DNA of 64,000 bases from Bythopirellula goksoeyrii (GTDB lineage: Bacteria > Planctomycetota > Planctomycetia > Pirellulales > Lacipirellulaceae): assembly GCF_008065115.1 (NCBI RefSeq), contig NZ_CP042913.1, positions 1,524,338 through 1,588,337 of the forward strand. The letters run 5' to 3'. The position numbers and the translations under genes were made by a program. The notes beneath the pieces were generated by a model. The model was given only the letters and a program-made list of their open reading frames with translations, did not search any database and was not told the DNA's origin. Below are positions 52,874 to 56,685 of the stretch, one piece after another. Each line of letters opens with the position of its first letter. Positions within the stretch are counted from its first letter, which is position 1.

Positions 52874-53815
52874 ATGGTTCCCCGTAAGGCTGGTACCGAC
52901 TGGGAGATCCTCGCTCCTGCGAAATTGAACTTGTACTTGAAAGTTCTCGGCAAGCGCTCCGATGGTTTTCATGACCTGGATACGCTCATGGTCCCGGTGC
53001 AGCTATGCGACCAATTGCGCTGGTGTCCCGAGAATTCAGGACGGCCAGTTCAGGCTGAATCTTGCTCGCTAACTGTCGATTCTCGTGCTCTCAATCCAGG
53101 TCCAAGTTTGCATTCACTCAATTCCTCAGAGAATTTAGTGCTGCAGGCAGCCCATCTGGTCGCCGCCCGAATTGGCCGACCACCCCACGGGCATTTCCAG
53201 CTCACGAAACGAATACCCTTGCAAGCTGGCCTCGGGGGAGGCAGCAGCGATGCAGCAGCTACTTTGCGACTAACAAATGCCTGCTGGAAAGCAGGTCTTG
53301 CGGAGTCGGAACTTGCTCAATTGGCCGCTGAGCTGGGCAGCGATGTCCCGTTTTTCCTGCATTCCGGCCCTGCTATCTGCCGTGGCAGAGGCGAACGAAT
53401 TTCAACCGCCGCTGGACTAGCGAATTTGCACTTTGTACTGGTGAAACCCTCCTTCGGCCTCTCAACGGCGCAAGTTTTTCAGGAGTTTTCGAGTTCTAAG
53501 GAACAGATACAAAGTTCGAATGACAATTCAACTGCTAGGCTCACTAGTTTGATTGGCGCACTACAAGCTGGGGCATTGTCAACTGCTAGTCGCTGGATGA
53601 CTAACTGTCTGGAGTCCGCTGCAGCGCGGATCGCTCCAGAAATTCTGTGTATCAAAAACTTATTAGCGGATGCAGGTTGCCGGGGACAACTCATGACTGG
53701 CAGCGGCTCAACCTTATTTGGAATTGCTCGATCAGCAAGGCATGCGAGATGGATCGCCCGACAACTATCGGCACAAAGCATGGGAACTGTGTTGGTTACG
53801 TCAACGAGTTGGTAA
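52874..53815 (+). CDS. ispE: 4-diphosphocytidyl-2-C-methyl-D-erythritol kinase
   Basis: The GHMP-kinase protein of 313 residues starts near WEILAPAKLNLYLKVLGKRS, the substrate-binding helix, and has the ATP-binding loop PLQAGLGGGSSDAAATL. The third motif lies in LMTGSGSTLFGIA. IspE carries out the ATP-dependent step of the non-mevalonate isoprenoid pathway in the cytoplasm. Only 30 bases separate its stop from the spoVG start, and both lie on the same strand, so they are probably one operon. In Bacillus ispE and spoVG are also near neighbours. The ATG has a weak GGA ribosome site. Confidence 0.93.
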   Translation: MVPRKAGTDWEILAPAKLNLYLKVLGKRSDGFHDLDTLMVPVQLCDQLRWCPENSGRPVQAESCSLTVDSRALNPGPSLHSLNSSENLVLQAAHLVAARIGRPPHGHFQLTKRIPLQAGLGGGSSDAAATLRLTNACWKAGLAESELAQLAAELGSDVPFFLHSGPAICRGRGERISTAAGLANLHFVLVKPSFGLSTAQVFQEFSSSKEQIQSSNDNSTARLTSLIGALQAGALSTASRWMTNCLESAAARIAPEILCIKNLLADAGCRGQLMTGSGSTLFGIARSARHARWIARQLSAQSMGTVLVTSTSW

Positions 53816-53845
53816 GGCGACCAATGAATCGCAAGGAGACTTACC

Positions 53846-54469
53846 ATGTATATTTCTGAAGTGCGAATTAAACTGATGGAAGATCCTGGCGAAAGGCTCA
53901 AGGCCTTTTGTTCGATCACATTCGATAACTGTTTCGTCGTGCGCGATCTCAAAATCATCGAAGGATCCAATGGCCCTTTCGTAGCTATGCCCAGTCGCAA
54001 GCTGACTTCCCACTGTTCGCGTTGCGGCATGAAAAACCATCTCCGGGCCCAGTATTGCAATCAATGCGGCTCGTCGATTAGCCACGATCACATGCCGCTG
54101 GATGCCGATGGTCGAGCAAAGCTCTATGCTGACATCGCCCATCCCATCAATTCCTCCTGTCGGGAGATGATTCAGGATCATGTAATCAATGAGTATTACG
54201 ATGAACTTGATCGCTCGAAACTCCCCGGCTATGTATCACGGTATGACGATGTCGATGTCGAACTAGGCTACGAAGAGGATGTGCCCCAACTGCCGCGCAA
54301 ACGTGAGACACGAATTGATCAGGCCCATAAAGACTCCTCGCCACATGAATCTCGAAAAGGAGACGTAAAGAGCAGTGGGCACGAGAGTTCATCTTCGAGA
54401 GCCCCGGGAGGCAAACCTCCGCATCAAGTCGAAGATTCCTTCGGATCAGGTATCTTCCCGGATGCTTAG
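53846..54469 (+). CDS. spoVG: SpoVG-family protein with an inserted zinc ribbon
   Basis: The SpoVG core is clear: [40 protein letters not shown] and AMPSRK, then [20 protein letters not shown]. Between AMPSRK (about residue 52) and DIAHPIN (about 96) lies a ribbon CSRC-(10)-CNQC, with Cys57, 60, 71 and 74, absent from ordinary SpoVG. The C-terminal 85 residues are charged and Ser-rich, probably disordered. SpoVG homologues bind DNA and RNA and regulate transcription. AAGGAG six bases before the ATG is near-perfect. The stop overlaps the end of uppP on the other strand by four bases. Confidence 0.92.
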
Positions 54470-55266
54470 AAGAGAAGCCGCCAAGCGACAACAGTGATTC
54501 CCAGCGGCACGAGATAGTAGGCGAACATCGCGAGTCGACCACGACGGACAAAGCGTATCAACAGGGCTAATGCTGCCAGGCCTACGACAAACGAGATGAG
54601 AAAGCCTACTGCCAGCGTTCCCAGCGGCGTTCCCGTAGTGCCTTCTTTCAATGCCTCGAGCATTTCTAGCACTCCACCACCGGCAATAGCCGGAATCGCC
54701 AACAAAAACGCGAAGGTCGAAGCGGACTCCCGCTGCAAGCCAACGCCTAGTCCTCCGGCAATGGTAGCACCGCTGCGAGAAATTCCTGGTAGCAATGCAA
54801 AAGCTTGGAGCATGCCGATCTTGAGAGTGTCCTGCCAATTTAGTTGTTTGTAGTCAGTTGATCCTTCAGTGCGATTGGAAGCCCACCACAGGAGCACTGC
54901 TGTAACGGGAAAGCAAAACCCTGCTACCAGTGGATTGGCGAGTATCAAATCGCTCGTTGCAGCAGGGAGCCCCTTCTTAAGATAAATTCCAATCACGGCC
55001 GCCGGTATTGTGCCTAGGATCAAAAGTGGTATCAGCCGACGATCCGAGGTAAAAAGTCGCAAGATTTCGCGGCGATAATAGACCAACACGGCAAGCAAGG
55101 TTCCCAGATGCAACACAATTTCAACTTCAACCAGATCCTTGACCGGTTCACTACCAAGCGATTGGAAAATCGCGTTGGCTACCACGAGGTGTCCTGATGA
55201 ACTCACCGGCAAGAATTCAGTGAGACCTTGCACAATCGCGAGGAGAATGATTTCGAAGATTGTCAT
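54466..55266 (-). CDS. uppP: Undecaprenyl-diphosphatase
   Basis: The polytopic membrane protein of 266 residues has the family motifs [12 protein letters not shown] (residues 18-29) and [18 protein letters not shown], plus [16 protein letters not shown]. UppP (BacA) dephosphorylates undecaprenyl diphosphate on the periplasmic side to recycle the lipid carrier of peptidoglycan and other polymers, and gives bacitracin resistance when overproduced. It lies tail-to-tail with spoVG, the stop codons overlapping by four bases. The start is fixed by the family N-terminus. Confidence 0.95.
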
Positions 55267-55446: not shown

Positions 55447-56073
55447 ATGGGAATTCGCTTCTTTTGCCCGAATGGCCACAAACTCAATGTGAAAGGATTT
55501 CTCGCGGGCAAGCGGGGGATCTGTCCCGAATGCGATGCGCGCTTTCTGGTTCCTATGGAAAGCGGTGGAAGAGTTGAAGCCCTTGAAGAGCCTACCGAGT
55601 TGCTGGGGTCAGATGTACCCGCACCGGCCAATCATAGCGACTCTCTGAAAAAGGAAGAGGCCCATCTTGCTGACACCGACTGGCACGTTCGTGGTGCCTC
55701 CGGTGCTGAACAAGGACCGATTCCTTACGCCCAGGTGAAGGCTCAAATAGAGATTGGACAGGTCGACAAGGACTCTTGGGTCTGGCGGACCGGGTGGCAA
55801 GATTGGCAACGGGCAATCGATGTGTTCCCCGAAATTGAATCAACCCCCGACGGATCGAATGCCAACACTGTTAAAGACATTGGGGCAATTCCAAGTAATC
55901 CGGAAACCATTGTAGTTGAAGAAAGTGGTTTTGTTCCTCAGGAATCTGTAGCAGTAGCAACTCATCGCCGTCTTCAACGAGAACGTCGTCAACGTGCGAG
56001 AATGGTTACTCTGGTTCTGACCGTTCTGATTTGCTTGCTGGCGCTAGTTCTCGGGATAATACTTTCGCGGTAA
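55447..56073 (+). CDS. GYF_2-domain membrane protein with N-terminal zinc ribbon
   Basis: The 208-residue protein starts with a zinc-ribbon-like segment (IRFFCPNGHKLNVKGFLAGK, then GICPECDARFLVP), continues with a GYF_2 domain (WHVRGASGAEQGPIPYAQVK, then VDKDSWVWRTGWQDWQRAID), and ends in a single C-terminal transmembrane helix (MVTLVLTVLICLLALVLGII). The GYF domain probably faces the cytoplasm and binds proline-rich partners. Such DUF4339-type proteins are common in planctomycetes. No neighbouring partner is evident. A terminator for the next gene lies after its stop. Confidence 0.82.
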   Translation: MGIRFFCPNGHKLNVKGFLAGKRGICPECDARFLVPMESGGRVEALEEPTELLGSDVPAPANHSDSLKKEEAHLADTDWHVRGASGAEQGPIPYAQVKAQIEIGQVDKDSWVWRTGWQDWQRAIDVFPEIESTPDGSNANTVKDIGAIPSNPETIVVEESGFVPQESVAVATHRRLQRERRQRARMVTLVLTVLICLLALVLGIILSR

Positions 56074-56196: not shown

Positions 56197-56685
56197 TCAG
56201 GTGGTGGAATCGCTCTGAGGAGCCTGGGGAGCTGCTTCTGGAACAATCTCACCAGCGGCTTCGCCACAGCTGCTGCAACCTTCGACGGCGGCACCACCAC
56301 AACTGCTGCAACCTTGGACTTCACCACAGCCACAAGGAGCGGCACTGCAGGAGCAAGTTGTGCAGCAACCAGCACGACGAGCCTTACGGGCCTCGCGACG
56401 GGTCATGCATTCGCAGCTGCATTGGCTAACTTCACAACCGCAAGGAGCGGCGGCGGAGCAACCACATGGAGCGGCAGGAGCAGCTTCGCAACCACAAGGA
56501 GCAGGAGCAGCTTCACATGGGCAAACTGGCTCGCTGTAGCAAGCTGGAGTAGCTTCACAGCATACAGGCTGGCAACAAGTGGCGGGCTTGCAGCACTTGT
56601 TCTTGCGCTTGAACAAACCAGCTTCGGCGCTCGAAGCAGCCAACATCACCATTACAGCAGTCAACACGATCATAGCACGTTTCAT
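56197..56685 (-). CDS. Secreted cysteine-rich protein
   Basis: A signal peptide (MKRAMIVLTAVMVMLAASSA) is followed by a mature part with about 28 cysteines in 140 residues, arranged in KCCKPATCCQPVCC, repeated APCGC and CSSCG units, and a basic patch (RREARKARRAGCC). The plan suggests a metal-binding or densely disulfide-linked extracytoplasmic protein, a type recurrent in planctomycetes. It is not a recognised metallothionein. A long ORF on the opposite strand (56185-56862) is a shadow of this GC-rich repeat. A terminator follows the stop. Confidence 0.75.
   Translation of the reverse strand: MKRAMIVLTAVMVMLAASSAEAGLFKRKNKCCKPATCCQPVCCEATPACYSEPVCPCEAAPAPCGCEAAPAAPCGCSAAAPCGCEVSQCSCECMTRREARKARRAGCCTTCSCSAAPCGCGEVQGCSSCGGAAVEGCSSCGEAAGEIVPEAAPQAPQSDSTT

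Follow-up and report, generated by a model that had tools for sequence, protein, structure and literature searches.

The window analysed here, a stretch of 64,000 nucleotides from the chromosome of Bythopirellula goksoeyrii, contains a spoVG gene located directly downstream of ispE and preceded by a Shine-Dalgarno-like motif (Table 1). SpoVG proteins are small regulators that bind DNA or RNA. At its 3' end, spoVG overlaps by 4 bases a convergent uppP ORF (54466-55266, minus strand). The encoded protein matches the Pfam SpoVG family (PF04026) over residues 1-118 with an E-value of 1.7e-27 and a score of 95.8 bits, above the gathering cut-off of 29.6. Against the NCBIfam SpoVG equivalog NF009749 it reaches 89 bits, below the cut-off of 108, the match being split in two stretches. 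This is the single SpoVG match returned by a search of its own genome, and its nearest named relative found is the SpoVG of Bythopirellula polymerisocia, with 80% identity. Two other ORFs were observed nearby, one (55447-56073, plus strand) encoding a GYF_2 domain protein with CPN...CPEC in its N-terminal part and a hydrophobic segment at the C-terminus, the other (56197-56685, minus strand) a cysteine-rich product (162 aa) whose beginning is signal-like and in which CC and CGC motifs are numerous.

Table 1. Features of the spoVG locus, in window coordinates.
Feature	Position	Strand	Basis
ispE, 30 nt 5' of spoVG	52874..53815	+	ORF, profile match, synteny
Shine-Dalgarno-like AAGGAG, 7 nt ahead of the spoVG ATG	53833..53838	+	read in the sequence
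spoVG CDS with zinc-ribbon insert, 207 aa, ATG start	53846..54469	+	ORF list, Pfam, PDB alignment
SpoVG N-terminal sheet, residues 1-52, ending in MPSRK	53846..54001	+	PDB alignment, DSSP
Arg51-Lys52, equivalent to K50-R51 of S. aureus SpoVG by alignment	53996..54001	+	R51 in 138/143 rows, K52 in 133/143 rows
Insert, residues 53-93	54002..54124	+	mostly without alignment to Staphylococcus/Bacillus SpoVG
Cys57 codon	54014..54016	+	143/143 selected rows
Cys60 codon	54023..54025	+	143/143 selected rows
Cys71 codon	54056..54058	+	143/143 selected rows
Cys74 codon	54065..54067	+	143/143 selected rows
SpoVG helix, residues 103-124	54152..54217	+	PDB alignment, DSSP of the model
Conserved C-terminal tip DSFGSGIF, residues 197-204	54434..54457	+	tip count in homologues

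The insert and its four cysteines

A phmmer comparison with the PDB aligns residues 1-53 and 94-123 of the window protein with solved SpoVG structures and leaves residues 54-93 unaligned, so that the SpoVG core is intact on both sides of the insert. The sequence-only reading had claimed as much from the letters, and the Pfam match agrees with it. This reading had placed a Cys4 ribbon between AMPSRK and the INSSCRE helix; the four cysteines are found where it put them, and the right border had to be refined, the insert extending over residues ~53-93 and the helix starting at residue 103 and ending at 124. The net insert amounts to 36 residues between MPSRK and DIAHPINS. The planctomycete protein shares with the SpoVG of Bacillus, Staphylococcus, Listeria and Borrelia the fold, the MPS-basic pair, the DIAHPINS motif and the helix, but differs from them by this Cys4-bearing insert and by a longer tail that often carries an FGxGIF-like tip.

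Conservation was measured on an alignment of 143 rows, composed of the window protein and 142 of 170 less redundant ORFs. Because the Cys pattern served as a criterion for choosing these rows, selection accounts in part for the invariant cysteines. The invariant columns are M48, P49, C57, C60, N64, C71, C74 and P100; the invariance of N64 and the retention of K63, R67 and N72 lie outside the selection. Two spacings, K52-C57 and C60-C71, are constant in all 143 rows, and the distance from K52 to D96 is 43 residues in 111 of them, versus 7 in Listeria SpoVG (L071). The mean column entropy is 1.16 bits in the sheet, 1.61 in the ribbon without its cysteines, 2.43 in the linker and 2.17 in the helix. 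Every selected row displays the four cysteines in two knuckles, as in a zinc ribbon; at E<=0.01, Pfam DZR matches 140 of the 143 members and Zn_Ribbon_1 matches 74. The window ribbon itself falls below the gathering cut-offs of both families (23.5 versus 27.3 bits for DZR, PF12773; 20.4 versus 25 bits for Zn_Ribbon_1, PF13240). Judged from these sequences, the Cys4 pattern of the insert is beyond chance. An assembly or frame artefact is ruled out, the insert being common to 209 ORFs (207 distinct proteins).

The insert itself is already known. In the accessible text of their paper, Gupta, Bhandari and Naushad (2012; PMC3444138) describe in SpoVG a Planctomycetes signature indel, of 36 aa in the text and 32-36 aa in the figure legend, shared by every sequenced member of the Planctomycetes and absent from all other organisms. 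This signature is the same insert, used as a taxonomic marker, and the words "zinc" and "cysteine" are absent from the main text of the article. A search by title and start of abstract, with most subscription journals outside its scope, retrieved no publication about SpoVG with a zinc ribbon. The present analysis adds the recognition of the insert as a conserved, basic and likely zinc ribbon between two contact sites, together with the ispE linkage, the C-terminal tip and the phage copies.

Distribution of the ribbon and linkage to ispE

Among 392 Planctomycetota genomes, a PF04026 search gave a match in 233, and in 150 of the 217 that have a completeness of 90% or more and a contamination of 5% or less. 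A recognisable SpoVG is thus missing from a sizeable share of the phylum. The loci read, which cover part of the 233 positive genomes, comprise 226 from Planctomycetota (own, searched and genome-contig) and three Bacillota/Fusobacteriota controls (L070-L072). A profile detected 223 SpoVG-like ORFs, including four ribbon-free ones from the controls; eight further loci gave weak short matches under the profile threshold. The strict pattern CxxC-x8-14-CxxC is found in 207 of the 219 Planctomycetota ORFs, and in 209 when deviations in the first knuckle are allowed (L173 and L196), a few of these 209 being cut or frameshifted (L213, L202). The cysteines are accordingly conserved in homologues, as the sequence-only reading expected. 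The ten ribbon-less ORFs consist of two contig-end pieces (L212, L229), two frameshifted-looking sequences (L202, L215) and six divergent short proteins. Among the 219 ORFs of the fetched loci, every canonical full-length planctomycete SpoVG carries the ribbon. Acquisition of the ribbon as a local event is ruled out by this phylum-wide presence. The divergent short ribbon-less proteins form a SpoVG-like class in a few planctomycete genomes (L214, L216, L217, L218, L221, L228); among the four that were scanned, the Pfam cut-off is exceeded by L217 and L218 but not reached by L228, and the L214 stretch gives no match.

Of the 209 ribbon-SpoVG ORFs, 192 are preceded on the same strand by an ispE-like ORF, at less than 250 nt in 187. 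Among the 17 without it, L120 and L213 are close to a contig end, and six others belong to genomes with another ribbon copy (L111, L142, L172, L189, L207, L210). The adjacency is phylum-wide and supports an old ispE-spoVG linkage within Planctomycetota, which bears out what had been proposed from the window alone. The Bacillus order has purR-yabJ between ispE and spoVG, whereas the planctomycete ispE is directly upstream of spoVG without them. No conserved downstream partner was found, the three downstream genes scanned being different (a DNA polymerase IV, a DUF2520 protein and one without Pfam match). Planctomycetota lack FtsZ according to the accessible part of PMC10632474, a study of essentiality in Planctopirus limnophila whose main text contains neither "SpoVG" nor "ispE".

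Ribbon-bearing SpoVG also occurs on viral contigs. In IMG/VR, 23 loci were collected, of which 10 encode a ribbon-SpoVG (L232-L241, eight distinct proteins) and 13 a ribbon-less form; the L237 protein is identical to that of L236, and the L239 protein to that of L238. A PHROGs scan of the neighbours of eight of the ten revealed portal and head morphogenesis genes at L236, a major head protein at L234 and L235, and a terminase large subunit at L241; it showed no clear structural phage gene beside L232, L233, L238 and L240. The flanks retrieved around the viral-contig spoVG loci, of up to 3 kb, revealed no ispE. L238 harbors in addition a tandem repeat (1093-1738) that can be read in two overlapping frames, one GYGYGSGN-like and the other MDMDMEVE-like. 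Outside Planctomycetota, tblastn matched 11 plasmid and 13 phage records, and no ribbon was found in them: in 21 of these 24, the match crosses the ribbon site with a span that falls ~35-39 residues short of what the ribbon would need, and the three remaining records, H11 (L072), H23 (L312) and H24 (L313), are ribbon-free on reading.

A tree was built on 79 core columns without the insert for 98 sequences, namely the window protein, 70 random ribbon ORFs, 23 viral-contig proteins and 4 controls. It separates ribbon from ribbon-less forms with a support of 0.767 and one exception, the ribbon-less viral protein L247, which falls on the ribbon side. This core tree is weakly consistent with a single gain of the ribbon. 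L247 originates from a 470-kb viral contig and could represent a ribbon loss.

Predicted fold and basic face of the ribbon

The AlphaFold model (monomer, 143-row alignment) has a mean pLDDT of 81.3, with values of ~95 in the core and ribbon, including the blocks covering residues 51-80, and of 86-91 in the linker; by blocks of ten, the tail past residue 140 is at 47-65. The ten top Foldseek matches are SpoVG chains with a probability of 1.00, and in the VIA comparison SpoVG chains have Z-scores of 12.5-13.5, the superposition on 2ia9_F giving 13.5 with an rmsd of 2.0 over 86 residues. For the ribbon, Foldseek returns many RanBP2/NZF fingers (probability 0.91-0.98, rmsd 0.7-1.1 over 24-27 columns, E >1) and a few poor finger fits such as 7mnp (probability 0.82, rmsd 4.3). 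Zinc fingers reach VIA Z-scores of 3-4 (3.0-3.2 for the single RanBP2-type 2gqe and 2lk0), a level that unrelated RNA polymerase rows also attain. A profile search with the ribbon ranks the DZANK1 double zinc ribbon first (2.7e-5), followed weakly by eL40 (0.014) and Rpb12 (0.05). The four cysteines, whose separation would have contradicted the sequence-only reading, probably sit together in this confidently modelled ribbon, and its superposition on zinc-finger structures suggests a tetrahedral Cys4 site. According to the model, the insert is likely a single Cys4 zinc ribbon, comparable to one half of a double zinc ribbon and possibly folded like the RanBP2/NZF fingers.

The two families to which the ribbon is closest each differ from it in specific ways. 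The double zinc ribbon and zinc-ribbon families (PF12773, PF13240) have in common with it the C-x2-C-x10-C-x2-C-G pattern and partial scores; the SpoVG insert, in contrast, holds one ribbon instead of two and a basic KNHLRA...CN face, and the window protein remains under their cut-offs. The RanBP2-type RNA-binding fingers (ZRANB2, RBM5, RBM10) share the C-x2-C-x3-N-x6-C spacing and possibly the fold of the model, but the SpoVG ribbon is without the Trp two residues ahead of the first Cys, the stacking Trp and the second RNA-contacting Arg. Indeed, compared with the RanBP2-type consensus given in the accessible text of PMC6384913, the Cys and Asn spacing is the same, and Trp occurs at position 55 in none of the 143 rows. 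In a putative register, R67 and N72 fall at the ZRANB2 RNA-contact positions R19 and N24 (PMC6384913, same text), the stacking Trp position would be occupied by H65, and the second Arg position by A or S68 in 143 of 143 rows. A nucleic-acid face is likely on these grounds and on those of position and charge given below, and a true GGU reader is not claimed.

The position of the ribbon points in the same direction. In S. aureus SpoVG, DNA binding strictly requires K50 and R51, and the helix residues S66-E71 determine specificity, as stated in the accessible text of PMC3688583. R51-K52 of the window protein align with the first pair, and residues 103-108 (SSCREM) with the specificity stretch SDMRQE; the ribbon therefore lies, in sequence, between two contact sites. 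Its face is basic, with K/R63 in 140, N64 in 143, H65 in 96, R/K67 in 120 and N72 in 118 of the 143 rows, versus 1, 5, 0, 1 and 0 of the 24 best-scoring ribbons of other planctomycete proteins. The mean charge of residues 57-75 is +2.3 in the SpoVG ribbon and -1.9 in these 24, and that of the whole SpoVG insert is +4.6. The 24 comparison ribbons, two of them identical, all come from genomes of the same one class and were retained from 30 loci among the matches listed, once five SpoVG loci and a poorly placed match had been removed. From this position and charge, it is plausible that the ribbon changes the target of SpoVG, as had been supposed before.

Proposed role and C-terminal tip

The reading that we favor, with somewhat better than even confidence, is that of a structural zinc ribbon whose basic face widens the nucleic-acid-binding surface of SpoVG, perhaps towards RNA. 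It is grounded in the sequence, conservation, predicted fold, position and basic charge of the ribbon and in the ispE linkage. The Cys4 ribbon would replace the short loop between the strand of the Arg-Lys pair and the base-specificity helix; in the S. aureus protein, this pair makes backbone contacts. The ribbon would bind zinc in a structural rather than a sensing role, and the basic surface made up of K63, H65, R67 and N72 would extend the binding surface of SpoVG, with a longer footprint and perhaps more binding of single-stranded RNA as the result. The ribbon-SpoVG may then act as a global, probably post-transcriptional regulator. In the accessible text of PMC4959528, Listeria SpoVG is titled an RNA-binding protein and shows weak ssDNA binding, and its affinity is cited as higher for RNA than for DNA in that of PMC13123087.

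An alternative that we hold to be unlikely makes the ribbon a protein-docking module joining SpoVG to RNA polymerase, the ribosome or an RNase, with nucleic-acid binding left to the core. NZF fingers bind ubiquitin or Ran-GDP, and such Ran- and ubiquitin-binding fingers are among the nearest structural matches; the weak eL40 and Rpb12 profile matches point the same way, and a basic face could bind protein too. This face is nevertheless unlike that of the 24 best-scoring other planctomycete ribbons, and the ribbon adjoins the DNA-contact pair. Less probable still is a redox or zinc-availability sensor, as the sequence-only reading had imagined, in which oxidation or zinc starvation would switch SpoVG off: four cysteines do lie within the core insert, and cysteines are frequent at positions 22 and 105 as well (118 and 89 of 143 rows), but the motif resembles ordinary zinc ribbons and the constant neighbor is ispE-like, not a zinc or redox control gene, the other neighbors being seen in few loci. 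A structural ornament fixed by chance in the ancestor of the phylum, with function unchanged, would account for an insert present in 209 of 219 ORFs with no canonical full-length copy lacking it, but is the most improbable reading in view of the non-cysteine ribbon columns (1.61 bits of entropy versus 2.25 for the first six helix residues), of K/R63, R/K67 and N72 retained in 118-140 of 143 rows, and of cysteines kept in all ten viral ribbon forms (8 distinct proteins).

The tail ends in a short conserved tip. Of 203 complete proteins, 81 match the pattern F[GSADK]xG[ILV] within their final 14 residues, including 64 of the 71 that have at least 190 aa; this pattern was written after inspection of the tails, an earlier different pattern having given 68 of 203. 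Shuffled tails yield a mean of 1.2 and a maximum of 5 in 500 rounds, and reversed tails 0. Variants such as DSFGSGIF and DDNFSTGIF were observed behind the low-confidence tail. Sharing of the tip with other proteins of this genome was rejected: in searches for F-G-x-G-hydrophobic-F, only SpoVG has it within four codons of the stop, and the second DxFGxGIF match lies well inside an ORF of 831 aa (the frames of the listed matches were checked by eye). It is not an SSB tip, since the best-scoring SSB of the genome ends in DEIPF. A bolder proposal, which we regard as doubtful, would make the planctomycete SpoVG a bivalent RNA-binding hub composed of the core, a RanBP2-like ribbon reading ssRNA and a self-regulating C-terminal tip, a hub that phages of these bacteria would redirect with a ribbon-SpoVG of their own, encoded near structural genes.

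The action of SpoVG is unsettled between site-specific DNA binding and RNA binding. A natural SpoVG with an extra zinc module between its two mapped contact sites, occurring throughout a phylum as well as in phages, would offer a ready test of how this protein reads nucleic acids, and the predicted zinc ribbon lends a molecular meaning to an indel employed as a taxonomic marker by those who discovered it.
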